Assembly (NCBI GenBank): GCA_020199835.1
Contig: JAIVJV010000010.1
Span: 1-64,000, forward strand
Length of the DNA: 64,000 nt
Direction: 5' to 3'
Origin: Acidobacteriota bacterium
GTDB taxonomy: Bacteria > Acidobacteriota > Blastocatellia > Pyrinomonadales > Pyrinomonadaceae
Below are positions 4,494 through 20,049 of this stretch, piece after piece (position 1 is the stretch's first letter; each line of letters begins with the position of its first letter). The position numbers and the translations under genes are program-made. The notes beneath the pieces are model-generated. The model did no database searches. It saw nothing but the letters and a program-made list of their open reading frames with translations, and had not been told where the DNA came from.

Positions 4494-5576
4494 ATGGCTA
4501 TCGGACGGCAAGCTGGTCCCCGCAAACGGCGAAACGTGTCCGCACCCGATCGGGACCACAACGCTGCAGTGCCGGCGCTAGAAGATGTGGGCGAGTTCGC
4601 TTTGCTCTCCATGATCGGCTCCTCGCCCATTTTTAACGAAACCGTCAGACGAATGGGGCGAATTGCGATGCGCGATGCGTCCGTATTGATTGAAGGCGAG
4701 ACGGGTTCCGGAAAGGAGGTGGCAGCGAGAGCGATTCACTACCTTGGTGCACGACGCGGCAGGCCGTTCATTCCCGTGAACTGCGGCGCTGTTCCCGATT
4801 CGCTAATCGAAGCCGAATTTTTCGGCCATGGCCGCGGCGCCTTTACGGATGCGCGCGAAGCGCGAGCTGGTCTCATTGCACAAGCGCACGGCGGCACCTT
4901 GTTCCTCGATGAAATCGACTCGCTAACACCCAAGGCCCAAGTCGCATTATTACGATTTCTGCAAGATCAAAAATACAAGCCCATAGGGCGCGACGTCGAA
5001 CTTGAAGCAGACGTGCGCATCATTGCCGCTACCAATAAATCTCTCATCGCACTCGCAAACAGCGACCGGTTCCGAACAGATCTTCTACACCGCCTCAGGA
5101 TTCTCTACTTGTACATTCCCCCGCTGCGCGAGCGTGAAGGGGATGCCGAAATGCTTGCGCAGCACTTTCTGCGGCATTACCTCAAAAAATACAATCTGCC
5201 TCCCAAGCGATTCGCTCCTGAATCACTTCGCTGGATAGGCCAGCACCGGTGGGAGGGAAACGTGCGCGAGTTGGACAATGCCGTCCATCGCGAAGTTGTT
5301 CTTGCGGATGGCGACGTGATCAGATTTGACGTTGCGAACAGTGAGACAAAGCCCACCCATCCAACAGTAAATTCGAGCGCTGACGACTACGCTACACTCG
5401 ATTTCCAGAGCGCCAAGGCGAAGGCAGTCCACGACTTCGAACGCGGTTACCTCACCCGAATTCTGCAAATTGCTCATGGGAATGTCAGTGCTGCTGCGCG
5501 CATCGCGGAAAAAGAGCGGCGCGCGTTTGGCAAGCTCCTCAAGAAACACCAAATCAGCCGCGAGCAGTTCAAGTAA
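4494..5576 (+). CDS. Sigma-54-dependent transcriptional activator without sensory domain
   Basis: This is a 360-residue bacterial enhancer-binding protein. It hydrolyses ATP to remodel sigma-54 RNA polymerase. Visible parts: a short basic N-terminus (1-35), the AAA+ sigma-54-interaction domain (about 40-275) with Walker A GETGSGKE (68-75), loop 1 GAFTDA (115-120, where the canonical motif is GAFTGA), Walker B GGTLFLDEID (133-142), sensor II around GNVREL, and a Fis-type helix-turn-helix at the C-terminus (AHGNVSAAARIAEKERR). Like PspF it has no receiver, GAF, PAS or FHA domain, so the signal must come through another protein (inference). The gene directly precedes two sigma-54 promoters and three palindromes that are its likely binding sites. 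No strong Shine-Dalgarno is seen before ATG 4494. Confidence 0.93.
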   Translation: MAIGRQAGPRKRRNVSAPDRDHNAAVPALEDVGEFALLSMIGSSPIFNETVRRMGRIAMRDASVLIEGETGSGKEVAARAIHYLGARRGRPFIPVNCGAVPDSLIEAEFFGHGRGAFTDAREARAGLIAQAHGGTLFLDEIDSLTPKAQVALLRFLQDQKYKPIGRDVELEADVRIIAATNKSLIALANSDRFRTDLLHRLRILYLYIPPLREREGDAEMLAQHFLRHYLKKYNLPPKRFAPESLRWIGQHRWEGNVRELDNAVHREVVLADGDVIRFDVANSETKPTHPTVNSSADDYATLDFQSAKAKAVHDFERGYLTRILQIAHGNVSAAARIAEKERRAFGKLLKKHQISREQFK

Positions 5577-5581
5577 ATCAA

Positions 5582-5603
5582 AGTGGGTGAAGAATGACCC
5601 ACT
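5582..5603. promoter_or_regulatory. Likely enhancer (UAS) palindrome 1 for the sigma-54 activator
   Basis: Perfect inverted repeat AGTGGGT-N8-ACCCACT starting 6 bp after the activator stop codon. Its centre is about 52 bp upstream of the -24 GG of the promoter at 5643. The same half-site and the same 8-bp spacing recur at 5952 and 6042. It has no T-tract, so a terminator is less likely. Confidence 0.7.
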
Positions 5604-5642
5604 CCCCTCCCGAATCCGAATCGCAATAGGTGATTTCGGTCT

Positions 5643-5658
5643 TGGTACGTTTTGTGCT
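5643..5658 (+). promoter_or_regulatory. Sigma-54 (-24/-12) promoter for the 92-residue gene
   Basis: TGGTACGTTTTGTGCT matches the consensus TGGCACG-N4-TTGCW at most positions. The invariant GG (5644-5645) and GC (5656-5657) are separated by exactly 10 bp. The predicted start of transcription is near 5669, 13 nt before the GTG at 5682. Confidence 0.65.
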
Positions 5659-5681
5659 GCCTCCATTCAGCACCAATCGAC

Positions 5682-5960
5682 GTGAACAACGAAAACCGAA
5701 TACAGATTGAACGTCTTGTTCTCCAGATCGCTGAATATCTGGCTCGCAATCCAATGGCGGCTGATACGCTCGCCGGGATTCAGAGTTGGTGGTTATCAGG
5801 AGCAATGCGCAATGTTCACAGCAGTCACGTTAAAACCGCGGTCCGCCTGCTCGTGCAACGAAGAACGTTGCAGTGCAACATCCAGTCGGACGGTACGAAG
5901 ACCTACTCACGTGCAAACAGTGGAATCTCCGCGCGGCGATCCGATCACGTCGGTGGGTAA
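5682..5960 (+). CDS. Small protein of the sigma-54 locus, possibly winged-helix-like
   Basis: 92 residues from GTG 5682; the upstream in-frame ATG at 5652 lies inside the sigma-54 promoter and is ruled out by it. The pattern (helix RIQIERLVLQIAEYLARNP, then ADTLAGIQSWWL, then VKTAVRLLVQRRTLQCNIQS and DGTKTYSR) suggests helix-helix-helix followed by a beta-hairpin, as in small winged-helix folds. The family was not recognised. It lies between the activator and the protease operon, with its own -24/-12 promoter and a palindrome upstream. Because the activator has no sensory domain, a regulatory partner role is possible (inference). The stop codon overlaps palindrome 2. Confidence 0.6.
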   Translation: MNNENRIQIERLVLQIAEYLARNPMAADTLAGIQSWWLSGAMRNVHSSHVKTAVRLLVQRRTLQCNIQSDGTKTYSRANSGISARRSDHVGG

Positions 5961-5973
5961 ATTTCAACCCACG
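5952..5973. promoter_or_regulatory. Likely enhancer (UAS) palindrome 2
   Basis: GTGGGT (5953-5958), 8 bp, ACCCAC (5967-5972): same half-sites and spacing as the copy at 5582. It overlaps the stop codon of the 92-residue gene. Its centre is about 185 bp upstream of the -24 element of the protease-operon promoter. Confidence 0.65.
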
Positions 5974-6041
5974 TATTAACAACCCCTGCTCTCGTCACAT
6001 CGGGGACGTTCCGAACAGGGCAAGCGCTTTGAAGGTGCTAA

Positions 6042-6063
6042 ACCGGGTCTTGCTTGACCCACT
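6042..6063. promoter_or_regulatory. Likely enhancer (UAS) palindrome 3, imperfect
   Basis: The right half ACCCACT (6057-6063) is complete; the left half ACCGGGT (6042-6048) matches AGTGGGT at 5 of 7 positions, again with an 8-bp spacer. The centre is about 95 bp upstream of the -24 GG, a usual enhancer distance for sigma-54 promoters. Confidence 0.55.
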
Positions 6064-6145
6064 CTACTTCAACTGCCGTTTGTTCCGCTCAAGCCTATCG
6101 AACGTTTTGTTCACAAATTCTCCAACTTGGTCCATGCGCGTGTAC

Positions 6146-6161
6146 TGGTACTGCGCTTGCT
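6146..6161 (+). promoter_or_regulatory. Sigma-54 (-24/-12) promoter of the protease operon
   Basis: TGGTACTGCGCTTGCT fits TGGCACG-N4-TTGCW closely: the TGG, the AC at positions 5-6 and the whole TTGCT block match, and GG (6147-6148) and GC (6159-6160) are exactly 10 bp apart. Predicted transcription start near 6172, about 11 nt before the ATG of the S8 protease. Confidence 0.75.
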
Positions 6162-6182
6162 CGTGATGTGAAATCAAGTGAT

Positions 6183-7505
6183 ATGAAACCCCACATCACA
6201 TTAACGTTGCGGACCCCGTTGCAACGCGTCGCGCTGCCTTATTGGGTTGATGCGATCACGCAAGCGCACTTGCGCAGCGCGCAATTTTTCCCAGCAGTCG
6301 ATGCACTGTTTGCAAGACATAACCTTGCCTTCACGGCAACCCATGAGTACAGGCCGGCTGGATCGGTTTGGTCGCCGCAGGAAATTGCAACCGGCTTCGA
6401 TCGCGTGTACCGACTGGTGCTCCAATCGGATGTCAGCATTCCAACGGAGCTCATTCAATCTATCCGCGTGCTCCCGGAGGTGGAACGCGTTCACGTAGGC
6501 GCTATCGCCGAGATGGATTTGCAACCGCCGTATGCGGAATCGCTGAGCGTGCGCACCAATCGCGCGTCACGCGACGCGATCTTTCTGGACGAGGCACATG
6601 CGTTCAGCGAGGGCGATGAGGCCATCACGGTGGCGATCCTCGATACAGGCGTGGATTGCGATCATCCCGAATATAAAAATGCACTGCTCCCCGGCTACGA
6701 CTTCGTCGACATACTGGACGGCGCAACCGAATTCATCGGCGATTACCTCGGCGCCGATGCCATCCCGGAAGACGAAGTCGGTCACGGCACCCATGTCGCG
6801 GGCATCATCACGGGAAAAGGAAAGAACATGCCGCGCGGTGTTGCACCGCGCTGCCGCGTTCTGCCGGTGCGCGTGCTGGCGGCGATGAACAAGGACGGCC
6901 GCAAAGTCGGCGCCGGTTCCGTCGAGAATATTAACAACGGCGTTAAGTGGGCCATCGATAACGGTGCGGACGTGATCAACATGTCGCTGGGTGTACGCCA
7001 CACTGGCGGTGGACTCCCGCATAAAGAAGTTATCGAGTACGCGCAGCGTAAGGGCGTGACGGTGGTCGCGGCGTCGGGAAATGACGGACGGCAGGAGTTG
7101 TACTACCCGGGCGCATTTCCGAGTGTGATCGCAGTCGGCGCGGCCGATGACGAGGGTAACGTCGCGGAGTTCTCGACGTTCGGCGATCAGGTGTCCTTCA
7201 TCGCCCCGGGTGTGGACGTGTACAGCACTTCCATCGAAGACGGCTATGCGTTTTCCACGGGGACTTCTCACGCCGCGCCGTTCGTTACCGGCGCCGTTGC
7301 GTTGATGAAATCCTTTGCGCGGTCACAAGGCCACGACCTCAAAGATTCTCAAGTTAAGCACGTGCTCAAACACACAGCCGACAAAGTGGATCGCAATTTC
7401 AAGGACCGTAAAGCGGGATATGGCCGGCTCAATGTCGCTGATGGTCTGCGTTACCTGGATTACAAGCTCAACTCGTCAAGGAGAACGTCCCATGGCTACC
7501 ACTAA
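6183..7505 (+). CDS. Subtilisin-like serine protease (S8), no signal peptide
   Basis: 440 residues from ATG 6183; the frame is open further upstream, but that stretch contains the -24/-12 promoter. S8 catalytic residues are all visible: Asp154 (AILDTGVD), His201 (GHGTHVAGI), oxyanion Asn300 (AASGND) and Ser362 (GTSHAAPFV). Residues about 75-115 (LVLQSDVSIPTELIQSIRVL, then PEVERVHV) resemble an inhibitor-I9-type propeptide, so self-processing is plausible. There is no signal peptide or transmembrane helix, which suggests cytosolic activity or a non-Sec exit. It is the first gene of the sigma-54 operon and overlaps the next gene by 14 nt. Confidence 0.92.
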   Translation: MKPHITLTLRTPLQRVALPYWVDAITQAHLRSAQFFPAVDALFARHNLAFTATHEYRPAGSVWSPQEIATGFDRVYRLVLQSDVSIPTELIQSIRVLPEVERVHVGAIAEMDLQPPYAESLSVRTNRASRDAIFLDEAHAFSEGDEAITVAILDTGVDCDHPEYKNALLPGYDFVDILDGATEFIGDYLGADAIPEDEVGHGTHVAGIITGKGKNMPRGVAPRCRVLPVRVLAAMNKDGRKVGAGSVENINNGVKWAIDNGADVINMSLGVRHTGGGLPHKEVIEYAQRKGVTVVAASGNDGRQELYYPGAFPSVIAVGAADDEGNVAEFSTFGDQVSFIAPGVDVYSTSIEDGYAFSTGTSHAAPFVTGAVALMKSFARSQGHDLKDSQVKHVLKHTADKVDRNFKDRKAGYGRLNVADGLRYLDYKLNSSRRTSHGYH

Positions 7506-8211
7506 AAGGCCGAACTCAGGCCCGTCTAATAAAAAGAATCGCTACACCGATCTGCTGACAGATGTGCTTCCACCAAATGTGGGAACTAGCCGTGTAGGAA
7601 CAAGCGGCAGGGAAACTCCTTCACGAACAACGGTGCTTCCTGCCGATTTGATCGATTTTGATGACGAGAAACTTAAGGTTGGCTGGCGGAAGATCATTGA
7701 CAGTCAACGCAAGGGCGTCGAAACGGACGTGCTTAAAATCTCACCGCCACGCGCGAAACTTGATCCGATTGCGAAGAACGCGTTGGAGGACCTTCGCGCA
7801 AAGTTGGTCCACAAGTCGCCCTTGGACGGATCGGCTGAAGCGGGACCGCCGCAAAACCTTGAAAAGTACGTGCGCGGGTTTATTACCAGGAGAGGTATCG
7901 CCAGCGAAGTGAAGAGAGTCACTGATCGGCTCAACGCCCGCCGGATCACCGATGGCCGGCGCTGGGTACTCGCGACGACCTACGAGTTCATATTGGCAAA
8001 GTTATTTCAGGATCGAGGCGACGAGCTGGAAGAGTTCATCAAAGACGATCTCGGCGTCGCGGAAAAAATCCTGCTCGAGCTGGATTCTAAAGGTGGTCCA
8101 CTCGATGTCTTCGTCAATCTGATCGTCAACTCGGTGATGAAGCGCAACCGTATCAACCCGAGCAACACGCTTCGCGAAATCGTATCGCAGCAAGTCCGCG
8201 CCGCGATCTAA
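7492..8211 (+). CDS. Unknown helical protein of the protease operon
   Basis: 239 residues. The start is ATG 7492 because AAGGAG lies upstream at 7479-7484; longer frames run through the protease. It is basic and Ser/Thr-rich up to about residue 45, then mostly alpha-helical (LDPIAKNALEDLRAKLVHK, a WVLATTYEFILAKLF helix, DDLGVAEKILLELD). No signal peptide, no catalytic motif, not recognised. Translation is coupled to the S8 gene by the 14-nt overlap, so it may be made in proportion to the protease. Confidence 0.75.
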   Translation: MATTKRPNSGPSNKKNRYTDLLTDVLPPNVGTSRVGTSGRETPSRTTVLPADLIDFDDEKLKVGWRKIIDSQRKGVETDVLKISPPRAKLDPIAKNALEDLRAKLVHKSPLDGSAEAGPPQNLEKYVRGFITRRGIASEVKRVTDRLNARRITDGRRWVLATTYEFILAKLFQDRGDELEEFIKDDLGVAEKILLELDSKGGPLDVFVNLIVNSVMKRNRINPSNTLREIVSQQVRAAI

Positions 8212-8224
8212 TGGGAGAATGACC

Positions 8225-9448
8225 ATGATTAATGGAAACTCACGCACTGTATCCCTGGCCCCGGGCGGTCTCGAACCCGCCGTACTCCACATCATCGACC
8301 GGGTCAATGAGCAAGCACAGTTGCCGGTGTTCGTGGACATGTACATCCAAAACTCGGGGATCGCTGAAGACCGCTTCACCCCCGAGGTGCGCGCGGCGAT
8401 GGTGGATTACCTTCGCGAACGCGGCGCTGAATTCGAAAGCATCGATGCAGTGCTCGAGCGGGAGTACGACGAGCTGTTTGCGTTGGCATACGAAAACGCC
8501 ATCACTCGCAAGGCCGGTCGTGACGATCCAATCGACGCCGCGCACCAACCTGGCGGCGGTGCGATTGCAGCGGGCTGGGACTTCAGTGTGGATCTGTTCG
8601 ACGACGTCGAGCAGCAGGGTGTTGTCCGCGACAATATTCTGGCCGCCGGCGCGATCGATTACATCTACGAGCTCGGCGAACACATGGGCGTGTTCCGTCT
8701 CGTGGACGCGTTGGTATTGAACTGGGCCAGTGGTTCGATCGACGTGGTCGAAGGCGATGTCGTTTCACGCATGTACCGTTACTGGAAGCTGCGCGATCAG
8801 CGCATGTCATCCGAAGAGCGCGGCATGGTTTACCGCCGAGTGCTGAACAAGGGTGAAACCGACGTCCTCGATCGCATGGTCGCGAACGAGGAATGTCCGA
8901 ACCTGTGGCACAACCTGATGGCCGAGGTCGCCGACTACATCGACAAGACGGAACGGGTGAATTTAGGATCCAGCGAAAGTTCTCCTGTCTCACGCGCGCG
9001 CATTTTCCAGGCTGTGCGTGACTTGCAATACAACCTCACCGAGTACTGCACCGGCATGGCCCACATCCAGGCGCGCGAGCTTTATGCGCAACTTCAGGAA
9101 TGTGTCGAACTGCTGCGCGATCCGGACGTCCTGGCGTATTTCGGCGGCAACCGGCGCAAGAGTCTTTGGACTGTCATTGAGAAGATGTCGAAGCAGGAGT
9201 TTGGCGGGAGCCCAAATATCGCAGCGCTGCGCTCGCTCGCAGTCGATGGAAACACCATCTTCCGTTTTGTCGCCGACTTCACCGAGGGGGGCGTGAGGCA
9301 GGAAGAGTTCGCTCGTTTCCTGGATGCGGCCGAGTCATACATCCTGAATTATTCGACAGTCGGCGGCGACATGTCATCGATGGAAGAAGAAGACGGGGAA
9401 GAGAGCACCGAATTTGATGAGGAGGATGAGGAGTTGGATGAGTTCTAG
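8225..9448 (+). CDS. Unknown helical protein with acidic C-terminal tail
   Basis: 407 residues from ATG 8225, chosen because GGGAGA (8213-8218) is 6 nt upstream; ATG 8219 would touch it. The protein is largely helical, with many Asp/Glu and Trp/Tyr-containing helices, and ends in a highly acidic tail (about the last 22 residues are mostly Glu/Asp). No signal peptide, transmembrane segment or known motif. The acidic tail could be a binding tail for the very basic neighbours (inference). It starts 13 nt after the preceding stop and is followed after 55 nt by the next gene. Confidence 0.75.
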   Translation: MINGNSRTVSLAPGGLEPAVLHIIDRVNEQAQLPVFVDMYIQNSGIAEDRFTPEVRAAMVDYLRERGAEFESIDAVLEREYDELFALAYENAITRKAGRDDPIDAAHQPGGGAIAAGWDFSVDLFDDVEQQGVVRDNILAAGAIDYIYELGEHMGVFRLVDALVLNWASGSIDVVEGDVVSRMYRYWKLRDQRMSSEERGMVYRRVLNKGETDVLDRMVANEECPNLWHNLMAEVADYIDKTERVNLGSSESSPVSRARIFQAVRDLQYNLTEYCTGMAHIQARELYAQLQECVELLRDPDVLAYFGGNRRKSLWTVIEKMSKQEFGGSPNIAALRSLAVDGNTIFRFVADFTEGGVRQEEFARFLDAAESYILNYSTVGGDMSSMEEEDGEESTEFDEEDEELDEF

Positions 9449-9503
9449 GCTCCTCTCTCGTAACCAGCCCGAGTAGAAAATCAATTAACACGGGAGTTCA
9501 CCG

Positions 9504-10601
9504 ATGAGCGAATCGCAAGCAATGAAGGACCTGGCCCGCAGCTACGCGCGCGACGAGTTAATGAACCTGCCGACTTTTCGGCAACTAGGCACCGACGATC
9601 AACGTGCGCTCTATCGCGATGTTTACCATCGCCATGTCAATCGGCTGAGCCAACCACGGACCACGGCACGGGCATTCGCGGACCCCAAGAATGCGGGTGA
9701 GATGATCAATGACCAGCGACACCTCAACCAACGCATCGATCAGGCGGGCGAGTTGGCCGGTGGCTTTGTTGATGAAGTCGATTTTCCAGGGTTCGTAAAA
9801 GATCTATTGAAAGGCGTGTTCGATGCCAACCTGAAAGTCACTCTCGATCAGATGGAGGCGTACCAAAAACTGTTGAAGGCAGCAACGCAATCCCTGACTG
9901 CGTTCATGAGCAAGATCAAGCCCGAAGCTGCGTTTGGCTATTTGGCCGATAACAGTAGTGACGAGTTTGGCCTGTCGTTCAGCGAGAATGAATCCGACGA
10001 GGAGGGCAATAAGAAAGTCGTCCTCACGGACAAGGAAGGCAATGCCGTCGATACCGAGGATTCGCGCATCAAGTCGCGCATCATGGATGCGACATTACAG
10101 ATGGCACGCGAACAACGAGCGATGTTGCGCGAAACCATTCTGATGGGCATCACGCGGCTCGTCGTGGAAAGAGGAAACGTCAAAGCCTCGGTGTTATTCG
10201 ACATTAAAGCGAAGGAGCAAATCCAGAAGGGAGACAAGGCGGCACTCTCAGAACAGGTTGCCAGGAGCAGGAGCATCACCGCCAGCGGCGGGTTTCTTGG
10301 CTCGATCATAGGCGGCCCGTCCGGTGGCGGGACCAGCAGCGAGCGGAAAACGAAGTTGAGCGTCTCGTCGGCCAAGAGCGTCGCGAGCACGGAATTAGCC
10401 GCAAAGATCACAGGCTCCGTGGACATCACGTTCAAATCCGATTATTTCAAACTTGATAATTTTGCGGCGATGTATGGACCACTCGGTGGTGCCGGTGGTC
10501 CTGCACCGACAGCAGCAGCACCGGGAGCCGCGCCCGCCATGGCTCCAGGAGCAGCGCCGGCCGTTCCAACCGCGCCTGCTGGCGTGACTGCTCCGCGCTG
10601 A
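9504..10601 (+). CDS. Unknown protein with Gly-rich hinge and Ala/Pro-rich tail
   Basis: 365 residues with a good Shine-Dalgarno (GGGAG before ATG 9504). The N-terminal half is helical (residues 1-150) and residues 150-195 are acidic. Around 255-280 there is a Gly/Ser-rich hydrophobic stretch (SGGFLGSIIGGPSGGG), then a beta-like segment, and the last 35 residues are a low-complexity Gly-Ala-Pro tail. The tail and hinge resemble flexible linkers of structural or surface proteins. No family recognised. It is separated by 9 bp from the next gene. Confidence 0.75.
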   Translation: MSESQAMKDLARSYARDELMNLPTFRQLGTDDQRALYRDVYHRHVNRLSQPRTTARAFADPKNAGEMINDQRHLNQRIDQAGELAGGFVDEVDFPGFVKDLLKGVFDANLKVTLDQMEAYQKLLKAATQSLTAFMSKIKPEAAFGYLADNSSDEFGLSFSENESDEEGNKKVVLTDKEGNAVDTEDSRIKSRIMDATLQMAREQRAMLRETILMGITRLVVERGNVKASVLFDIKAKEQIQKGDKAALSEQVARSRSITASGGFLGSIIGGPSGGGTSSERKTKLSVSSAKSVASTELAAKITGSVDITFKSDYFKLDNFAAMYGPLGGAGGPAPTAAAPGAAPAMAPGAAPAVPTAPAGVTAPR

Positions 10602-10610
10602 TGAAACTCG

Positions 10611-12803
10611 ATGGCACTCGCGCTGCTTTGGGCTGAAACGCTGGAGGACGACGTATCCGCGTCAAGGCTGCGCTTTGACATTGGCCACAATCACTACTAC
10701 GTATGGCAACTTGGAGATCAAGGGCGGATCAACACCAACGGCATAGCGCGGCTGGCCAACGTCAAACAGCGTTCGCGCATGTTCGGTCCATTGCGTGAGA
10801 GCGCACGTGGCCGCGGGGTCCTGGAAATCCCGTCCGAACTGATGTCGAAAGAAGATCGGTTCGTGCAGTTGATAAGTTTTCGGACCGAGGGCGGTGCAGG
10901 CCCGGCCATCTCGCCAATAGTCGAGATGGATTGGACCAAAGCGCGGGGTAACGTGGAACGGTTGCCCGACATGGACACCCTGCCCGCGCTATTCGCAATC
11001 GGACGGAGCGCTACGAGACCACGGCGGGTGGCCGGCGCACTAAGTAAGGCGGATGGAGGCTTCACAGTGGCTTTAGCACAAACGTATTCATCCACGCCCG
11101 CGCGGATACAGCCCGTGGACGCGGCGCCTTTACGCTGGCGCGAACGCAACCTGAGCCAGGGAATGTTTCTTGGCGGACTGCTTTCTTCGCTCATGCCGAC
11201 TCTCGCGCCGGTCATTGGCAATGTGTTAACCAGCGCCGCTCCGGCGATTGGTCAATTCATCGGCGGCTTGTTGCCGGGTGCATCGGGTGGCGGCGCCGCA
11301 GGCGCGACCGGCGGCGCGAGTGGCACTCCCGCTAATACGCAGCTCACTCAATTGATCCAACAGTTGGTGCGCAGCATTGGTGGCGCTGTTGCTCCCGCGA
11401 CACCCGCGACCCCCGCCGCAACCCCGACAACGGCCACTGCGCATTCGCTGGCCTTCGGTTCGCTCGGCGCGCGTGTCGCGCGACAGGCGCCTTCCAGGTA
11501 TTCCTTTTCACACTCGGCGAGAAAGCGCGCACGGCGCAATCCGCGCGTCGTGCAATACGCGCAGGCACAAGACTACAGCCAGGCAATGATTGCGCCTGCT
11601 CTCCTCGCTGCCCTGCCGGCGTTGATGCCTGTATTGCAACAAGTATTGTCTCCGCAAACCATTCAAACCGTCCTCGACGCGCCGCAACGCGCTACCGGCC
11701 AGATCATGAACGGTTTGATGGATTTTGCGCGAATCGGTATGCAGGCCACTGAACAAGAACGTGCGCATCTGCGTCAACTTAATCCCGGTGTTGATGATCC
11801 CGCGCTCCACCAGTTGTTGATGAGCATGAGTCAGGGCGTCGCGGCAGCGCAGCGCTTGAACTACCGTCGCGTTGCGAGTGTGAAACTGAGTTTTGACGAC
11901 GCGCAGAGCCAGATGCTGTTCGGCCGCTCGCGCGTGTTGTATCGCAGGGACCGAGCGCTGCAATTTCCCCTGAGTGTGATCACGCCGAAGACGATTTCCG
12001 CCGCCCGGCTGGTGTTGCAGATCAAGCATCCGGACACCCTGGCGGTGCTGGTCGAGGACAGCGAGGACGTCGGCGAACTGTCCAGCGGTCCAATTCCTCT
12101 CGTGCCGCGCATTGATGAAGCAATGACTGCGCGCCTTGAGCCGAATCAGGATTACATCGTGATGGTGACGCTACTCTGGAAGAACAAGAAGAAGCAGCAA
12201 GTCGGCACCTCGATGCAACAGCGCATCACGCTGATCGGCGAGTATTCGTTTGATCGGGTGGAAGAAGGCGGCGAGCAGGTTGCGACTTCGGACTTCGAGC
12301 AATACCGCGACCTGTGGCACAAAGTCTGGCAGGGTGAGTTCAGCACGGGTGCGCACGCTGCCCGTCTCGACTGCCGTTACTATCTCGTCCTTAATCCAAA
12401 ACGCACCAACAACGCGCGGCTCGATACGCATGTCAAATCGGACAACGGCAAACTCGGCGGCAAACTCAAGACGGGAATGGAGTACAGCCCGTACGTGTTG
12501 AACCATTTGCTCACGCGCCTCACGCCCGAATCCACGCCACTCAGTGACGCTGAAATTGAAGCGCTATGCGGCAACGACTTTGTCGAGCGTTTTAATCAGG
12601 CTGCTCAATTCAGCGGCAAGTTGAAAGGCCGGCGCGGCGAAAGCGGCGCGTTGTGGGTGTATCCCGAGTTCAAGATCCAGACGCTCGTGTTGACTCGAGC
12701 TGAAGACGTAGACGAGAACGGCAATGTACGCACGCTGAACGAAACACGGGTGCGTTTTCCGATGCCCGTGATGATGCACTTCGTAGGAGTAAAAGGCGCA
12801 TGA
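10611..12803 (+). CDS. Unknown 730-residue protein with two hydrophobic segments
   Basis: Residues 1-180 are beta-rich. Residues about 185-223 are hydrophobic, Gly/Ala/Pro-rich and nearly uncharged (FLGGLLSSLMPTLAPVIGNV and onward), followed by a Gly/Ala/Thr/Pro-rich linker to about 290. A second hydrophobic stretch (MIAPALLAALPALMPVLQQV) lies at about 326-345. The remaining 350 residues are a mixed beta-rich domain with many charged residues. There is no signal peptide. The two segments could insert in membranes or pack as a core (inference only). It overlaps the next gene by 4 nt (ATGA), so translation is coupled. Confidence 0.78.
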   Translation: MALALLWAETLEDDVSASRLRFDIGHNHYYVWQLGDQGRINTNGIARLANVKQRSRMFGPLRESARGRGVLEIPSELMSKEDRFVQLISFRTEGGAGPAISPIVEMDWTKARGNVERLPDMDTLPALFAIGRSATRPRRVAGALSKADGGFTVALAQTYSSTPARIQPVDAAPLRWRERNLSQGMFLGGLLSSLMPTLAPVIGNVLTSAAPAIGQFIGGLLPGASGGGAAGATGGASGTPANTQLTQLIQQLVRSIGGAVAPATPATPAATPTTATAHSLAFGSLGARVARQAPSRYSFSHSARKRARRNPRVVQYAQAQDYSQAMIAPALLAALPALMPVLQQVLSPQTIQTVLDAPQRATGQIMNGLMDFARIGMQATEQERAHLRQLNPGVDDPALHQLLMSMSQGVAAAQRLNYRRVASVKLSFDDAQSQMLFGRSRVLYRRDRALQFPLSVITPKTISAARLVLQIKHPDTLAVLVEDSEDVGELSSGPIPLVPRIDEAMTARLEPNQDYIVMVTLLWKNKKKQQVGTSMQQRITLIGEYSFDRVEEGGEQVATSDFEQYRDLWHKVWQGEFSTGAHAARLDCRYYLVLNPKRTNNARLDTHVKSDNGKLGGKLKTGMEYSPYVLNHLLTRLTPESTPLSDAEIEALCGNDFVERFNQAAQFSGKLKGRRGESGALWVYPEFKIQTLVLTRAEDVDENGNVRTLNETRVRFPMPVMMHFVGVKGA

Positions 12804-12982
12804 ACCCGAAACGAAAACAGCTTGGCTGGGCGCAAGAGACCGATGCCGTTCCGAAACTCGAGGGAATGGAGATCGAGTTTGATGAAAAGGTGACGTTGTT
12901 TCCCGTGGACCTGGAAGAGATTCGTGATGTCGTGCCGAAGAGGTCGCCGGGTGCAACGCGCAATGGCAGGGCGACGCATTGA
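12800..12982 (+). CDS. Small unknown protein of the protease operon (60 aa)
   Basis: Starts inside the ATGA overlap with the preceding gene and ends 1 nt before the next start. This tight fit is the main reason for accepting it. The composition is acidic in the middle and basic at both ends (NPKRKQLGW at the start, RSPGATRNGR near the end). No recognisable motif. Confidence 0.6.
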   Translation: MNPKRKQLGWAQETDAVPKLEGMEIEFDEKVTLFPVDLEEIRDVVPKRSPGATRNGRATH

Positions 12983-12983
12983 G

Positions 12984-13295
12984 ATGAATGAACTTGCGCC
13001 GTACGAGATCAGTCCCCTGGATCGTCTTCCGGCGCTCGCTGAATTCCTCGCTGAACTGGCGGGCGCGGCGAGTGGCGATCCGGATTTTGCAGGAGAGGAA
13101 ACGATTTGGATCAGTGAGATCAGACTCGACCTGCCGATTGAACTGGATTTGTTGGAGGAGTCGGGTGCGTGGCAGCTCGATGCGTCGCCACCCACCCAGA
13201 TAATTGAAACGTCGGTAATGCCGGTTTTGCATCGAGTACGACTCAGAGTGACGGTAAACAATGGCGAACGCAATCTCGAACCCGTGGAACCTTGA
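12984..13295 (+). CDS. Small unknown protein of the protease operon (103 aa)
   Basis: 103 residues from ATG 12984, one base after the previous stop codon; the longer frame from 12924 would overlap the previous gene. An acidic helical N-terminus (LPALAEFLAELAG) is followed by beta strands (ISEIRLDLPIELDLL, SVMPVLHRVRLRVTV). It overlaps the next gene by 35 nt. Not recognised. The strand pattern suggests a small beta-sandwich or adaptor domain. Confidence 0.65.
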   Translation: MNELAPYEISPLDRLPALAEFLAELAGAASGDPDFAGEETIWISEIRLDLPIELDLLEESGAWQLDASPPTQIIETSVMPVLHRVRLRVTVNNGERNLEPVEP

Positions 13296-14031
13296 GAACT
13301 TTATCGATTCGCTCATTCTGGAACTCGATAAGGCTCAGGACACGCTCGCAATGAAAGGTCTGACACGGAAAATGACGTACGCCGTTAAAGACGTGGGGTT
13401 CGACCTGCACCTGTTTCCCACTTATGAAAACGGCAAACTCAAATTCCAGATGGCGAAGCCGGGCGATCAGGGTGGCTCGCGCATCTCGTTTCAGCTTGGA
13501 TCCATTACCGATCGCCAGATTCGAGAGTCCGGGAATGAGCCGCTGTCGCGCGATGACATCAGTATCGACAACCTGGAAGGTATGGACGACGAGGTGAAGG
13601 ATTCGTTGCGTAAGGTCGGAGTGCATTCTACTCGTGATTTGGAGAGGATGGACCAGCGCAACGTTAATGTCGAGAGAGTTGTGGAGAACAAAACGCAAGG
13701 CAAGAAGAAACTCGATTATAGCGACCTCGCCAACATGATTAACAAGGCGAAGCGGCGCAAGTTCGCGCCCCAGTTGTCGGCCGCGCAGGGACTGACTGGT
13801 GCAGAGGGGCTCGACCTGACGTTGCGCGGGCACAATTTCGTGCTGCCCGGCAATGATGACACTCGCTTTCCGATTGCGCTGCTCAATGGCGAATCGGTGC
13901 AGGTCGTTGCGGCGACGCACGACACATTGCGCCTCAAGGCGCCACAGCATTACCTCAAGCCTGGCGCTAACCGATTGTCGATCGCACTCGATCCTTATGC
14001 GGTAGTGAACATGGAGATCAACCAACCATGA
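13261..14031 (+). CDS. Unknown protein: beta domain + helix-hairpin-helix + IPT/TIG-like
   Basis: 256 residues. The N-terminal part (1-90) has one long helix and then a strand-rich region that looks loosely like small effector-associated beta domains. Residues 103-128 (LEGMDDEVKDSLRKVGVHST then RDLERM) have the pattern of a helix-hairpin-helix/DUF4332-like motif. Residues about 178-256 (LDLTLRGHNFVLPGNDDTRF, LKPGANRLSIALDPYAVVN) resemble an IPT/TIG-type immunoglobulin-like fold. This suggests a scaffold or adaptor. The assignments come from reading the sequence, and a profile search is needed for the N-terminal part. It overlaps the next gene by 4 nt (ATGA). Confidence 0.72.
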   Translation: MANAISNPWNLENFIDSLILELDKAQDTLAMKGLTRKMTYAVKDVGFDLHLFPTYENGKLKFQMAKPGDQGGSRISFQLGSITDRQIRESGNEPLSRDDISIDNLEGMDDEVKDSLRKVGVHSTRDLERMDQRNVNVERVVENKTQGKKKLDYSDLANMINKAKRRKFAPQLSAAQGLTGAEGLDLTLRGHNFVLPGNDDTRFPIALLNGESVQVVAATHDTLRLKAPQHYLKPGANRLSIALDPYAVVNMEINQP

Positions 14032-15152
14032 GCGCACGGTCATCCCGGTTACACGCATTGGAACGGGCCCTTAAATCGCCGGGTAAATCACGGGCCAAGG
14101 CCCGCAGGTTAACCGTGATGCGGTTTGAAGGCGCTTCCGCGCCAGCCGGCAACACGCGGCCCGCGGCTTTGCCCCCTGCTCGTTTGCCCAAAGACATGGA
14201 AGATCAAATCGCAATCGTGCGGGGTCGCGCCGTCGGCAAACCATCACGCGGCTTGATCCAGCTCGAAGAGCGCTTGCTACGACCGCGGGATACTGGTCCA
14301 ACAGCGGCGGCGGTTCAGCGCCATGATCATGGCGCGGTGCCGGTGTCCGCCGCTCCGATGTCGCAGCCACGTGTGCTGCCGCGGCAGCTGGCGGCGAGCG
14401 AGTTCGGTGGACGCTACAACGTGGAGTCGTTTGAAGACATGTCAACGATAACGGCTCCACGGCTGCCCACGTCCACACCCCAATTTAACGGAGGCACGAC
14501 ACCGGGCGCGATCTCCGCTCCCGCATTGCCTACAGTTCCACGTCCGGGAGTTACACCTTGCACTGAACCGCACGCGATTTCTCCGAGCGCACTTCCCGCA
14601 GTGCCAGAGCGCAGCGAGGCTCCCCGGCGGACTTCGCTTACTACCGATCAGGAAGCCGTAGCCGCGAACTTCGAGCGTGACGTTAGTGCGATGCTGGGTA
14701 CGCCAGCGCCGGCGGGCACACCCGAGAATCAACAATGGGACGACGCCTTGCGCAATGCGACAACCGGACCAACGGCAACACCTGCAACGCCGGTCGCTAC
14801 TCCGCAACCCGCGACGCCGAAGCAAGACCAACACGAAGTGTTCAATCAAATGGGCCTGGCGATGAACTATGCAAATAGCTTCGATCTCGGCGCGATGGAT
14901 ATCTCCGCGCGCTTTGATCGTTTTGACGAGGAACTTGCCCTCGCGCCGAAGCCTGCGGCGCAAACGTCCGCCGCTTTATCGTCGCCCGCCCCTCGTACTC
15001 CAGTGCAAGCTCTCTCGCTGGATGACTTTGATCTCGTAGAGGATTTGGCTGAAATCACTGGTGCTGCGCAGCCATGCCCTAACAAAGAAGACGCGCCCAC
15101 AGCAACTCCGACCCCTGCCAGCCCAGTTACAACTGAGAGGATGCAATCATGA
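14028..15152 (+). CDS. Pro/Ala/Thr-rich, probably disordered protein
   Basis: 374 residues. A basic N-terminus (SARSSRLHALERALKSPGKS) is followed by long Pro/Ala/Thr-rich stretches with repeated PALP and PATP-like elements, and two short ordered islands: LPKDMEDQIAIVRGRAVGKP near residue 55, and an acidic helical region around 265-305 (MGLAMNYANSFDLGAMDISA). It contains a FGGRYNVESF element also echoed as VRYNVEL before the second protease domain of the next protein. A linker, scaffold or protease-substrate role is possible (inference). It is coupled by ATGA overlaps on both sides. Confidence 0.68.
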   Translation: MSARSSRLHALERALKSPGKSRAKARRLTVMRFEGASAPAGNTRPAALPPARLPKDMEDQIAIVRGRAVGKPSRGLIQLEERLLRPRDTGPTAAAVQRHDHGAVPVSAAPMSQPRVLPRQLAASEFGGRYNVESFEDMSTITAPRLPTSTPQFNGGTTPGAISAPALPTVPRPGVTPCTEPHAISPSALPAVPERSEAPRRTSLTTDQEAVAANFERDVSAMLGTPAPAGTPENQQWDDALRNATTGPTATPATPVATPQPATPKQDQHEVFNQMGLAMNYANSFDLGAMDISARFDRFDEELALAPKPAAQTSAALSSPAPRTPVQALSLDDFDLVEDLAEITGAAQPCPNKEDAPTATPTPASPVTTERMQS

Positions 15153-16984
15153 CAAACCGCCTCGTCGATCTTGAATCCACCATCACTCGCTCTCACAAAA
15201 CGAAAGCCACACACCGGAACGGCAGGCGTCCGCCGGTTGCGCGCAAACCGCAAGGCGTGCTGACGCGGGTCGCCACCATGCCACCGCCGCCGGCTCCGTC
15301 GCTTTCGCCTGCGCCGGCGGTAGCGAAAGGATTGAGTGCCTTGGTCAGCAGGTGGCCGGCGCGCGCTGCCAGCAAAGCGCATGCGTTCGGAGCGGTCGAT
15401 TATACGGTTCCGGGACTCTTCAGCCCGCTGGCCCAACCACACTCCATGGCGTGTTGGGCCACCGTCTTTACGATGATGTGGTCATGGCGCCGGCAGCAAT
15501 CTTTGGACATCGAGACTTCGCTCGCTGCCCTGGGGCAAAGATGGCTGGATATGTATCGCGCCAATACTGGGTTGCCTGCTGAGGCCACAGCGGAGTTCAT
15601 GACTGCCGCCGGATTTGTGGCTGAACCACCGCGAAGTTATTCGGTCGAGGGATGGGAACAACTGCTGCGCAACTACGGACCGGTGTGGGTCACGACCGAT
15701 GAATTACCGGGTAAGGGTTGGGCCATCCATGCGCGGGTAATCACGGCCATATCAGGTGACGGCACGGCGGATAACACTTTTTTTACTATTGTTGACCCAA
15801 ATGGCGGACGCACGTATCGAGAATCGATCGCGGTGTTTATACCGAAGTACCAGGAGGAAGTAATTCAATCGGGCTACATGCGCATTCAGGTGGTCCATTG
15901 GTCCGCTGATGCGCGCGCCGAAGTGCGGGCGCAATCGTTCGGAGGTCGCACGACACGCGCTTCAGCCGCGCGGGCAAGTTCATTGTCCACTTCCTTTTCC
16001 GCGCCCAGCGTGGCGTTCGATTACTCCGGGGCACTGGCCGCGCATCGCCAGGCGTTGGCGCTGAGCCAGTCGTTTGATGTTCGGTACAACGTGGAGCTGG
16101 TGCCGCAGCAAACAGGTTTCTCCTGTTGGGCCGCGGGGTTCGCTATGATCGTTGGCTGGCGTGACCGCATGAGCATCAACCCTTCGGAAATCGCGCGCGC
16201 CACGGGCTACTGGGCACAATACCAGACCGGGTTGGATCCTGAGGACACTAGAGTCATGAGCACCTGGGGTTTAGTCGCTGAACTGCCTAAATCCTACATG
16301 ATCGAGGCGTTCGTGAATTTATTGCGCAGCTACGGACCACTATGGATTGCCAGTGCAGAGCCTGGTCCGCACATTCGGGTGGTCACGGGAATTCATGGCG
16401 ACGGCACTCCGGACGGGACCATACTGCATATCAACGATCCTTGGGAACAGGGCATGACGGCGTTCACTCCCACCAACCGCGGTTCGCAGTACACCGAGAC
16501 CTTCGCTCAATTTGAGCAGAAACAGGCCGAGTTGGCGATGCGGGAAACGGCCGTCGGAGCACCGATCTACGTCGCTCATCTTCCGAGCCTGCCGCTGTGG
16601 ATGAACAATCCGTTAGCGCAAAGTTTTTCGCATTACGTTGGCCGCCCACTGGCGATGGAAGCGCCCAGCAACCCGTCGAACTACCGGATGCTGACGTCGG
16701 GTATTTGGAGCAGTAACTCGACGCTGACGGTCCAGGGTGGTCAGGGCATGTGGTTCAAAATTCGTAACACGAACGTGTTAGGGACAACCATTCGAATCAC
16801 AGATCAGGCGAGACAAACCAAGCAGTCGATAATTTTGCCGGCGTCGAGTGTGGAATTTTTGTTCGCCATCTTTGGCAATGAACCGATGGGCTGGCGTTTT
16901 GATATCGCCACAGAAAGCGATGCCTTCATGGTAACGTGGGAGTTGTGGAGCACGTGGGTGCCAGGCATGCCGCCGAACGGATAA
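15149..16984 (+). CDS. Tandem papain-like (AvrRpt2/C70-type) cysteine protease
   Basis: 611 residues. After a basic Pro-rich N-terminus (1-80) there are two papain-like cysteine-protease domains. Domain 1: Gln97, Cys102 (SMACWATVF), His194 (WAIHARV), Asp216 (IVDPNGG). Domain 2: Gln320/321, Cys326 (GFSCWAAGF), His408 (GPHIRVV), Asp430 (INDPW). This Cys-His-Asp arrangement fits peptidase family C70, which includes the plant-pathogen effector AvrRpt2. Residues about 505-611 form a beta-sandwich-like C-terminal domain. No signal peptide is seen. It is the last gene of the sigma-54 operon and ends 24 bp before the convergent copper ATPase. Both domains keep the triad, so two active sites are expected. 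Confidence 0.85.
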   Translation: MTNRLVDLESTITRSHKTKATHRNGRRPPVARKPQGVLTRVATMPPPPAPSLSPAPAVAKGLSALVSRWPARAASKAHAFGAVDYTVPGLFSPLAQPHSMACWATVFTMMWSWRRQQSLDIETSLAALGQRWLDMYRANTGLPAEATAEFMTAAGFVAEPPRSYSVEGWEQLLRNYGPVWVTTDELPGKGWAIHARVITAISGDGTADNTFFTIVDPNGGRTYRESIAVFIPKYQEEVIQSGYMRIQVVHWSADARAEVRAQSFGGRTTRASAARASSLSTSFSAPSVAFDYSGALAAHRQALALSQSFDVRYNVELVPQQTGFSCWAAGFAMIVGWRDRMSINPSEIARATGYWAQYQTGLDPEDTRVMSTWGLVAELPKSYMIEAFVNLLRSYGPLWIASAEPGPHIRVVTGIHGDGTPDGTILHINDPWEQGMTAFTPTNRGSQYTETFAQFEQKQAELAMRETAVGAPIYVAHLPSLPLWMNNPLAQSFSHYVGRPLAMEAPSNPSNYRMLTSGIWSSNSTLTVQGGQGMWFKIRNTNVLGTTIRITDQARQTKQSIILPASSVEFLFAIFGNEPMGWRFDIATESDAFMVTWELWSTWVPGMPPNG

Positions 16985-17007: not shown

Positions 17008-19503
17008 TTAAAGTGACACACGTCGCAGCCGCAGCGCATTCCCTATGACGGACACGGAGCTAAAACTCATCGCTGCCGCGGCGATCATCGGGCTTAATAA
17101 CAGGCCAAAGAATGGATACAAAACCCCAGCTGCAACGGGTACACCCAGCACGTTATAGATGAACGCAAAGAAGAGGTTCTGTTTGATGTTGCCCATTGTT
17201 GCCCGGCTTAACCGCCGTGCTCTAACAATTCCTCGCAGGTCACCTCTAACCAGCGTAACGCCGGCGCTCGCGATCGCCACGTCTGTTCCTGTTCCCATGG
17301 CAATCCCAACGTCAGCCTGGGCCAGCGCCGGTGCATCGTTGATGCCATCGCCTGCCATAGCTACCCTATGACCCTCCACCTGGAAACGCTTAACGATTTC
17401 AGCTTTCTGATTCGGAAGCACTTCGGCGACAACCTCGTCGATGTTCAACTTTGAAGCTACTGCGGTAGCTGTTGTGCGACTATCGCCAGTGAGCATCACG
17501 ATTCGGATGCCGTCCTTATGTAATTGCTTGATCGCTTCGGGCGTACTCTCCTTTATCGGATCAGCAACGCCTAACAGTCCCGCGGCTTTGCCATCAATAG
17601 CGACAAACATGACGGTTTGACCGTCGGCGCGAAACTTCTCTGCAAGTTGGCCCAGCTCACCAACTTCGATGCCAAGATCATCAATCAGTGTCCGATTTCC
17701 CAAAGCTACTGCGTGCTTCTCAACCTGACCTTTTACTCCTTTGCCCGTTATCGAATCGAACGAGTTTGCGTTCACAACTTCTACGCCCCGCTCCCGAGCA
17801 CCCGAAACGATGGCAGTCGCTAACGGATGTTCACTGCCTTTTTCGAGACTGGCCGCGAAGCGCAATAACTCGCGTTCATTTACCCCAGCGGCCGGAGCAA
17901 CCGTGACGAGTTTCGGTTTGCCTTCCGTCAGTGTTCCCGTCTTATCCATTACGAGCGTGTCTACGTCCCGCAGCACTTCGATAGCTTCTGCATCTTTGAA
18001 TAGGACACCGACCTGAGCTCCCTTGCCCATCGCTACCATGATTGACATCGGAGTTGCGAGACCAAGAGCACAGGGACACGCAATAATGAGCACGGCAACA
18101 GCATTTATGAGGGCGTAGGTCAATTGTGGTTCTGGTCCGACTGTCGCCCATACGATGAATGTTCCTATGGCCACCAGGATTACGGCGGGCACAAAATACG
18201 CCGACACGCGATCAGCCAGTTTCTGAATCGGAGCACGGCTGCGTTGCGCGTCCGCGACCAGCTGCACAATCTGTGAGAGCAGCGTCTCAGATCCGACGCG
18301 CTCAGCCCTGATAATCAGACTTCCCGTGCCGTTAACCGTTGCACCGATCACGCGATCGCCAGGATGCTTTTCAACAGGAATCGGCTCACCGCTAATCATC
18401 GATTCGTCGACAGCACTTGTTCCCTCCTCAACTATGCCATCGACCGGAATCTTCTCGCCTGGACGCGCGCGTAACAGATCACCGACCTGCACCTGGTCCA
18501 GCGGCACATCCAGCTCGTTTCCGTCAGGCGCAATCCTCCGCGCAGTTTTTGGAGCCAAGCCCAGCAAGGCCTTGATTGCCGCGCTCGTCTGACTACGAGC
18601 TTTCAGCTCCAAAACTTGACCGAGCAACACGAGCGTAGTGATTACAGCAGCGGCTTCGAAATAAACCGGAACCGAACCGCCGTGGCCGCGAAAAGAATGA
18701 GGGAAGATGTCAGGGAAGATCGTGGCGACCAGGCTGTATCCGTAAGCGACACCCACGCCGAGAGCAATCAACGTGAACATATTCAGGCTTCGGTTTACTA
18801 ATGAGTACCAGCCACGGACAAAGAACGGCCAACCACCCCAGAGCACTACTGGTGAAGCCAAAACAAGTTGGATCCACGTCAGTGCCGCGGGTGATACGAG
18901 GCGCTGCAATGGCGCCCCGGGTATGAGATCGCTCATACCCATTGCAAACACCGGAATCGTGAGAACGACACTAACCCAGAAGCGCCGCTTCATCTCGGTC
19001 AGCTCTGCATTCTCTTCTTCCAGTGTGACAGTGCGCGGCTCGAGCGCCATTCCACAGATCGGGCAGAAGCCCGGCGCATCACGGATGATCTGCGGATGCA
19101 TCGGGCACGTGTATTCGATCTTCTCCGTTGGCGCGGTTACTGTCAGCGGCTCCAGAGCCATTCCACATTTCGGACAGGAACCGGGCTTGTTCTGTCGCAC
19201 CTCCGGATGCATGGGACAGGTGAACTCAGATGTTGCAGGCGTTTTTGGTTCCAGCTTAGCTTCGCGGAGGTGGCTTGTTTTTTCTTCACTGCCATGACTG
19301 AGGAATCGCGCTGGCTCTTCGCTAAACTTTTTAAGACAGTGCGGGCTGCAGAAGTAGAACGTTTTGTCGTTGTATTCGGACGAACCGGCGGCTTCGTTTG
19401 GCTTCACGTTCATGCCGCACACGGGATCAACGACGGCGTCGCCGGCGTGGTCTCGAGACGTTGATTTATCGAAACTGCTGTCTATTATTCTTATCGGTTT
19501 CAT
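17008..19503 (-). CDS. copA: Cu(I)-exporting P-type ATPase with YHS and two metal-binding domains
   Basis: 831 residues; pumps Cu(I) out of the cytoplasm at the cost of ATP. N-terminal YHS domain (about 23-70, VCGM and YFCSPHC), then two HMBD motifs (CPMHPEV with [10 protein letters not shown], and CPMHPQI with [10 protein letters not shown]). There is no classical GMxCxxC HMA domain. The ATPase core has [29 protein letters not shown] and [11 protein letters not shown]. The last helices contain YN-x4-P and MSFSS, the signature of Cu(I) (P1B-1) pumps. It lies 39 bp downstream of a MerR-type regulator gene on the same strand, so the two are probably one transcript. Confidence 0.95.
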
Positions 19504-19542
19504 TGCTCATGTTCTCCTGGCCTATCGGCGGTGGGCCAACCG

Positions 19543-20049
19543 TTATTTCCTCTTTCCTTTTTTGCTAAGTCCGCGGGGAGTCGGATCTGAGTGCCCGATT
19601 TCTGTTCCCTCAATCAGCCCGCAAACCTGTCCATCCAGTTCGCCGGTCTCCTCCCACTTTGCCAGCGCCGTTCCCAGCTCTCTGCGGTACCGACGCATCT
19701 CTTTCATTCGCTCATCCAGTTCTTCGAGGCGTTGGCGCACAATTTCGCGCACCTCGCGACATGGACTCTTGCCGGCTTGTTTATCTGCGATGATGCGTTT
19801 GATTTCATCGAGTGAGAAACCGAGAACTTGCGCTCGCTTGATAAAATCGAGCCGTTGAAGGACTGCCGCGTCGTACATGCGATACCCGCTCTCCGTGCGA
19901 CCTGGCTGGCCAAGCAATCCGCTGCGCTCATAAAATCTAAGCGCCTCAATACCGATGCCCGTCAGTTTTGCTACTTCACCAATTCTTAATGTAGTAAAAC
20001 CTTCACTGTGTCCGCGCCGCTTCGATTGGGGCGCCATCATCTCTCTCAT
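19543..20049 (-). CDS. MerR-family metal-responsive regulator
   Basis: 168 residues. N-terminal winged helix (LRIGEVAKLTGIGIEALRFY to GYRMYD) and a long dimerisation helix. Cys97 (SPCREV) and Cys143 (QVCGLIE) occupy the first and last of the three Cys positions used by divalent-metal members (ZntR, CadR, MerR); the middle Cys is absent. Start ATG 20049 follows GGGGAGGA. It sits upstream of the Cu(I) ATPase, and its own promoter (20076-20107) carries the expected palindrome, so it most likely controls itself and the pump. The metal it senses is uncertain: the Cys97-type position is normally not found in Cu(I) sensors of the CueR kind. Confidence 0.9.
   Translation of the reverse strand: MREMMAPQSKRRGHSEGFTTLRIGEVAKLTGIGIEALRFYERSGLLGQPGRTESGYRMYDAAVLQRLDFIKRAQVLGFSLDEIKRIIADKQAGKSPCREVREIVRQRLEELDERMKEMRRYRRELGTALAKWEETGELDGQVCGLIEGTEIGHSDPTPRGLSKKGKRK

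Follow-up and report, generated by a model that had tools for sequence, protein, structure and literature searches.

Inverted repeats upstream of two putative σ54-type promoters as probable enhancers of an adjoining activator in an Acidobacteriota genome

Introduction

Bacterial enhancer-binding proteins (bEBPs) bind dyad sequences as dimers and form a ring through their AAA+ domains. The ring reaches the σ54-RNA polymerase by DNA looping and opens the promoter through ATP hydrolysis. That σ54 enhancers adjoin the gene of a dedicated activator is textbook knowledge.

In the text of two surveys of bEBPs that control single operons (PMC6615313, PMC4641369), the upstream activating sequences (UAS) are short inverted repeats, often several per promoter, which lie upstream of a -24/-12 promoter and adjoin the activator gene, mostly with one operon per activator. 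The locus described here shares these features. It is part of a 64,000-nucleotide stretch of an Acidobacteriota genome (the window), for which an initial annotation had proposed three copies of a palindrome as probable binding sites of a σ54-dependent activator. We compared the locus with related loci of other genomes.

Results

On the forward strand, the window encodes a putative σ54-dependent activator of 360 aa (4494-5576), identified by Pfam (Sigma54_activat E=1.6e-58, AAA_lid_14 E=5.5e-19) and by alignments. It consists of an AAA+ domain and a putative C-terminal helix-turn-helix of the Fis type (HTH, ...KERRAFGKLLKKH), and no N-terminal sensor domain was recognisable in it. Sigma54_activat covers residues 40-204, that is, the AAA+ σ54-interaction domain is present. 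The HTH_8 match is weak (E=0.03, 14.4 bits, below the cut-off of 22), and the stretch is conserved in relatives. The loop motif, GAFTGA in its textbook form, reads GAFTDA both here and in the activator of a syntenic gammaproteobacterial locus (L060, see below); other relatives carry GAYTDA, GAFTSA or GAYTGA. Genes for σ54 itself (rpoN, PF04552) were found in the window genome (E=1.1e-58) and in the L060 genome.

The activator gene is followed on the same strand by a gene for a 92-aa protein with a GTG start (5682-5960). This small protein is a predicted winged helix: the structure model has the order H-H-H-E-E (pLDDT 76), and matches to winged-helix families are weak (best E 6e-3). To rank -24/-12 elements, we applied a simple consensus score with self-chosen weights to all positions on both strands of the 64-kb window. 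Putative promoter 1 (5642-5658, forward strand, TTGGTACG-TTTT-GTGCT) precedes the small gene and ranked fourth. Putative promoter 2 (6145-6161, forward strand, CTGGTACT-GCGC-TTGCT) shared the top score and precedes an operon that starts with an S8 subtilisin-like protease gene (6183-7505, forward strand; Pfam Peptidase_S8 E=4.6e-54).

Eight further forward-strand genes (7492-16984) complete this putative target operon. Proteins of 239, 409, 365, 730, 123, 256 and 374 aa are without family match, and the last gene (15149-16984) encodes a 611-aa protein in which two stretches match Peptidase_C70 (papain-like). The S8 protease is 56% identical to a homologue on a Tolypothrix plasmid, where five of the other operon proteins (409, 365, 730, 123 and 256 aa) have homologues in the same order. 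No relative of the 409-aa protein was found in phages, and a scan of viral contigs with the S8 protease returned nothing. Neither Pfam nor PHROG gave a match to tail sheath, tube or Pvc16-like proteins within 6183-16984. That is, by any family match the operon is not a contractile-injection (eCIS) cluster. Distant homologues occur on the Burkholderia pyrrocinia plasmid pBPJTT as well as in one acidobacterial genome (L055). The operon is directly followed by opposite-strand genes (17008-20049) for a MerR-like regulator and for a heavy-metal P-type ATPase that contains HMBD and YHS domains.

The initial annotation had reported three copies of AGTGGGT-N8-ACCCACT, all with an 8-bp spacer, at about 52, 185 and 95 bp from the -24 elements. 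All three are present: site 1 at 5582-5603 (AGTGGGT-GAAGAATG-ACCCACT, 14/14 positions), site 2 at 5952-5973 (GGTGGGT-AAATTTCA-ACCCACG, 12/14, with 6/7 per arm and a core of 10/10) and site 3 at 6042-6063 (ACCGGGT-CTTGCTTG-ACCCACT, 12/14, with a perfect right arm and a core of 9/10); no strand is assigned to them. Measured from the site centre to the GG of the -24 element, the distances are 51.5, 184.5 and 94.5 bp, in agreement with those reported. Counted from the start of the core, site 1 lies 58 bp upstream of the promoter 1 element, and sites 2 and 3 lie 191 and 101 bp upstream of the promoter 2 element. A location between the activator gene and the promoters, as annotated, holds for site 1, whereas sites 2 and 3 are downstream of promoter 1. 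In addition, the annotation had left out the small gene, whose stop codon is overlapped by site 2.

By itself, the count of matches in the window is unremarkable: with up to 3 mismatches we found 3, against a shuffle mean of 1.19, and 11 of 100 shuffles reached 3. The significance of the palindrome comes from the clustering of all three copies within 482 bp and from a search that started from dyads in general. When 1024 five-base arms were combined with 21 spacers (0-20) and scored in the intergenic stretch 5577-6182 (606 bp), TGGGT-N8-ACCCA ranked top of the 21,504 spaced dyads, its score was matched in 0/150 dinucleotide shuffles, and the outcome was unchanged when the homologous L060 region was added. 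With the motif fixed from site 1, the remaining 579 bp contained two more sites that deviate from the core at no more than one position (0/2000 shuffles as good; mean 0.0115). Both tests allow for a post-hoc choice of the motif.

An equal frequency of the motif in random intergenic DNA of the genome had been named as an observation that would speak against the annotation. The exact core TGGGT-N8-ACCCA occurs only three times in the 4.87-Mb genome, two of them at this locus; with up to one mismatch there are 65 matches, versus 56 for a reversed control pattern. Of these other matches with at most one core mismatch, 13 have no strong σ54 site within 350 bp. The motif is thus local to the operon, and nothing points to a regulon across the genome.

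Among species genomes, the closest activator was found at L060, a locus in a groundwater gammaproteobacterial MAG. Here, the activator (74% identity), the small protein (51%), the S8 protease (78%) and the 239-aa protein (56%) all have counterparts. The counterpart of promoter 2, CTGGAACA-GCGA-TTGCA (CTGGAACAGCGATTGCA), is the best σ54 match of the L060 locus, and the dyads TGGGT-N8-GCCCA and TGGGT-N8-ACCCG lie 187 and 105 bp upstream of this element before the S8 gene. In the whole L060 genome (3.4 Mb) only four sites have at most one mismatch to ATGGGT-N8-ACCCAC, and two of the four are at this locus. The sites are 82 bp apart, compared with 90 bp in the window (distances to the promoter of 101 and 191 bp), so that both site-to-promoter and site-to-site distances differ in helical phase. 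The counterpart of site 1 is degenerate (TGGGT-N18-ACCCA), and no dyad was seen within 260 bp of the σ54-like site before the L060 small gene (12114). In L060, activator and small gene are separated by an insertion (9158-12136) that codes for an NMT1-like substrate-binding protein as well as for a hybrid histidine kinase. Among the sampled Acidobacteriota and Gammaproteobacteria, the 239-aa protein was found in the window genome and L060 alone, and plasmids and viral contigs yielded none; this restricted distribution points to horizontal transfer.

Further loci were reached through profiles of the activator or of the small protein, not through the motif. These searches added ten gammaproteobacterial loci, each with a -24/-12-like element followed by a related small winged-helix gene. 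Eight of them have an activator of the same family nearby; within the sections read, none was seen at L108 and L115. The TGGGT-N8 dyad is present at seven of these loci (L094, L095, L108-L111 and L115), with one or two sites per promoter at no more than one core mismatch. In 6/7 promoters, the distance from the start of the proximal core down to the -24/-12 element is 78-81 bp (68 bp in L095), and a second site is located 158-175 bp upstream in 7/7, with two mismatches in L094 and L115. An eighth further promoter with the dyad comes from a genome of the window's own genus. All eight precede a related small gene and most precede eCIS genes. Thus the conservation in relatives that the annotation had called for is seen before σ54-type promoters in the L060 synteny and at these eight promoters.

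The eCIS link was assigned by Pfam domains (tail sheath, Pvc16_N, gp19 tube or T4 baseplate) in L109, L111 and L112, while L094, L108, L113 and L114 resemble eCIS loci by protein starts. Relatives of the small protein occur alongside the activator family and are often found ahead of eCIS genes; none was found on plasmids. The activators of L095, L110 and L111 are extended at the N-terminus, to a total of about 460-470 aa.

For nine promoters (the seven gammaproteobacterial ones, the window and L060) we recorded the spacing spectrum of GGGY-Nd-RCCC. The maximum lies at d=8: 16 sites, distributed over 9/9 promoters, against a shuffle mean of 0.17; none of 300 shuffles was as good. It is therefore hardly conceivable that the palindromes are a chance similarity of short GC-rich dyads. 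The unremarkable window-wide count would fit such a view, but the shuffles of the fixed-motif, dyad-first and spacing tests do not, and the conserved position at promoters found without the motif already contradicts it.

In an alignment of 17 sites, the arms hardly vary at any position, and the spacers, 70% A+T, differ in 17/17 cases. Because every spacer differs, the sites are not duplicated segments. Invariant arms with variable spacers are, judged from the alignment, the half-site pattern of a dimeric protein. Constant arm letters at a constant 8-bp distance, with spacers that vary in sequence, argue against RNA hairpins or terminators, a very improbable explanation of the repeats. Sites 1 and 3 do fold better as RNA than shuffles (z -2.8), and site 1, which comes after the stop codon of the activator gene, resembles a terminator when read on the minus strand. 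However, the sites lie upstream of promoters. We rejected the hairpin or terminator reading since none of the sites is followed by a T-tract on the coding strand and the L060 sites fold at the level of shuffles (z 0.3 and -1.1).

The palindrome was then compared with the HTH of the activators. In the activator tree, the window and L060 form a pair (100/100) within a ten-member clade (97/98). Three members with the HTH KERR(T/S)F-KL(L/M)EKHG form their own clade (100/99); the TGGGT-N8 dyad is absent at their loci, and 3/3 carry GGGY-N6-RCCC instead (shuffle mean 0.13; class recognised after inspection). In this sister clade of eCIS-linked activators (L112-L114), the same half-site is found with a 6-bp rather than an 8-bp spacer. 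Activator relatives in the bacterial class are at most 51% identical; part of them have GGACA-N4-TGTCC, and L031 fits the TGGGT class. For acidobacterial activators of the KNRRAFWQLIRKH type, GGACA-N4-TGTCC lies between activator and small gene in 6/11 loci. Among all 12 acidobacterial spacers between these two genes, GGACA-N4 occurs in six and one matches the TGGGT-N8 pattern; neither dyad was seen in the remaining five (L017, L019, L025, L032 and L033), so the GGACA-N4 class is not fully defined.

A further such case is a second activator/small-gene module of the window genome itself (L130, 5113-7000), with GGACA-N4-TGTCC before eCIS genes and no TGGGT-N8 site in its intergenic region. In a genome of the same genus, a sheath-bearing locus combines a TGGGT-type helix, GKERRSFGRMIKKYG, with GGGGT-N8-ACCCA, as predicted if helix and site go together. 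A homologous S8 cluster is also found on a Burkholderia plasmid. The HTH of its activator is unrelated, and a different palindrome, TGTGACAG-N5-CTGTCACA, stands just after the activator gene, followed by a σ54-type site. Since activators with other recognition helices have other dyads in the same place, palindrome and helix change together, and this co-variation with the HTH suggests that the activator is the binder.

The main rival binder would be the small winged-helix protein, with the palindromes as its operators and the protein as repressor or co-activator. It is a predicted DNA-binding fold encoded between the sites, and it co-occurs with them. As small protein and activator are nearly always found together, co-occurrence alone does not tell which of the two binds. 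Against the small protein stand the sites' classic bEBP enhancer distances upstream of -24/-12 elements, the change of the dyad with the HTH type of the activator, and the Burkholderia S8 locus, where a palindrome follows the activator and the annotation lists no small winged-helix gene by that name. We therefore consider this rival unlikely.

Discussion

We interpret the palindromes as UAS (enhancers) of the activator encoded at 4494-5576, with a probability of about 0.9. The comparison thus supports the earlier view of them as probable activator sites. They are inverted repeats at about 50-250 bp upstream of -24/-12 promoters, distances that agree with the UAS distances in the text of the published surveys (PMC6615313, PMC4641369), and they are conserved together with an orthologous activator and target. 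Some observations fit less well. Site 1 is rather close to promoter 1 (58 bp), and its L060 counterpart is degenerate; the σ54-like site before the L060 small gene has no dyad within 260 bp, and the distances in the window and L060 differ in helical phase; the activator has the GAFTDA loop; the sites are also weak RNA hairpins; the small protein accompanies the activator at nearly all loci. Likewise, 5/11 acidobacterial loci of the other HTH type are without GGACA-N4, and the spacer-6 class was recognised post hoc.

In the mechanism that we propose, dimers of the activator would bind TGGGT-N8-ACCCA through their Fis-type HTHs. DNA looping would bring the AAA+ ring to the σ54-RNA polymerase, where it would contact the enzyme at the -24/-12 elements and open the promoter with ATP. 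Site 1 would serve promoter 1, through which the activator would switch on the small winged-helix protein, and sites 2 and 3 would serve promoter 2 and the S8-protease operon. Since the activator lacks a sensor domain, its activity probably depends on its abundance, on a partner protein or on the small winged-helix protein. The longer N-termini of L095, L110 and L111 and the inserted substrate-binding protein and kinase of L060 suggest that signal input differs between loci.

On a broader view, for which the arguments seem to us evenly balanced, an undescribed family of σ54 activators with small winged-helix partners may be a widespread local regulator of eCIS in Gammaproteobacteria and Acidobacteriota. 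Helix and palindrome would form distinct pairs in its members (TGGGT-N8, GGGY-N6, GGACA-N4), which would apparently be kept separate even within one cell. The cassette of the window, horizontally transferred between phyla, would drive a non-eCIS S8-protease operon that may itself be a secreted machine. The conditions that switch this operon on offer a route to its role. The locus makes it possible to deduce cis/trans wiring from the sequence for organisms that are mainly known through metagenomes. A single activator family offers three pairings of helix and site, with a change in spacer length among them, by which DNA recognition by the Fis-type HTHs of bEBPs can be tested directly.

Among known regulators, the activator resembles bEBPs of the PspF type, which also consist of AAA+ domain and HTH without a sensor, and PspF models match its AAA+ part. 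Unlike PspF, it has a GAFTDA loop, no psp gene context and a small winged-helix gene after it. The best database models for the AAA+/HTH part are those of RtcR (PADLOC RtcR_PspF2, NCBIfam RNA_repair_RtcR). However, there is no CARF domain and no adjacent rtcAB, and the NCBIfam score is 285 versus a cut-off of 650.

We found no description of the activator/winged-helix/eCIS unit or of its site code in the open-access literature searched, and the string TGGGT is absent from the text, figures and supplements aside, of the UAS surveys (PMC6615313, PMC4641369). As for contractile machines, type VI secretion is likewise under σ54 activators (RpoN/Sfa2, VasH; PMC8855297), whereas the genes concerned here are eCIS clusters (Pvc16_N, sheath) or, in the window, the S8-protease operon. 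In the main text of an eCIS survey (PMC8213781), in which the word sigma does not occur, only GerE, BTAD and RfaH are named as regulators, with genes that also adjoin eCIS loci; the present family adds a concrete, testable regulator and promoter for such clusters. Compared with the surveyed bEBP UAS, these loci stand apart in that the site recurs as a unit together with the genes of the activator and of the small winged-helix protein.
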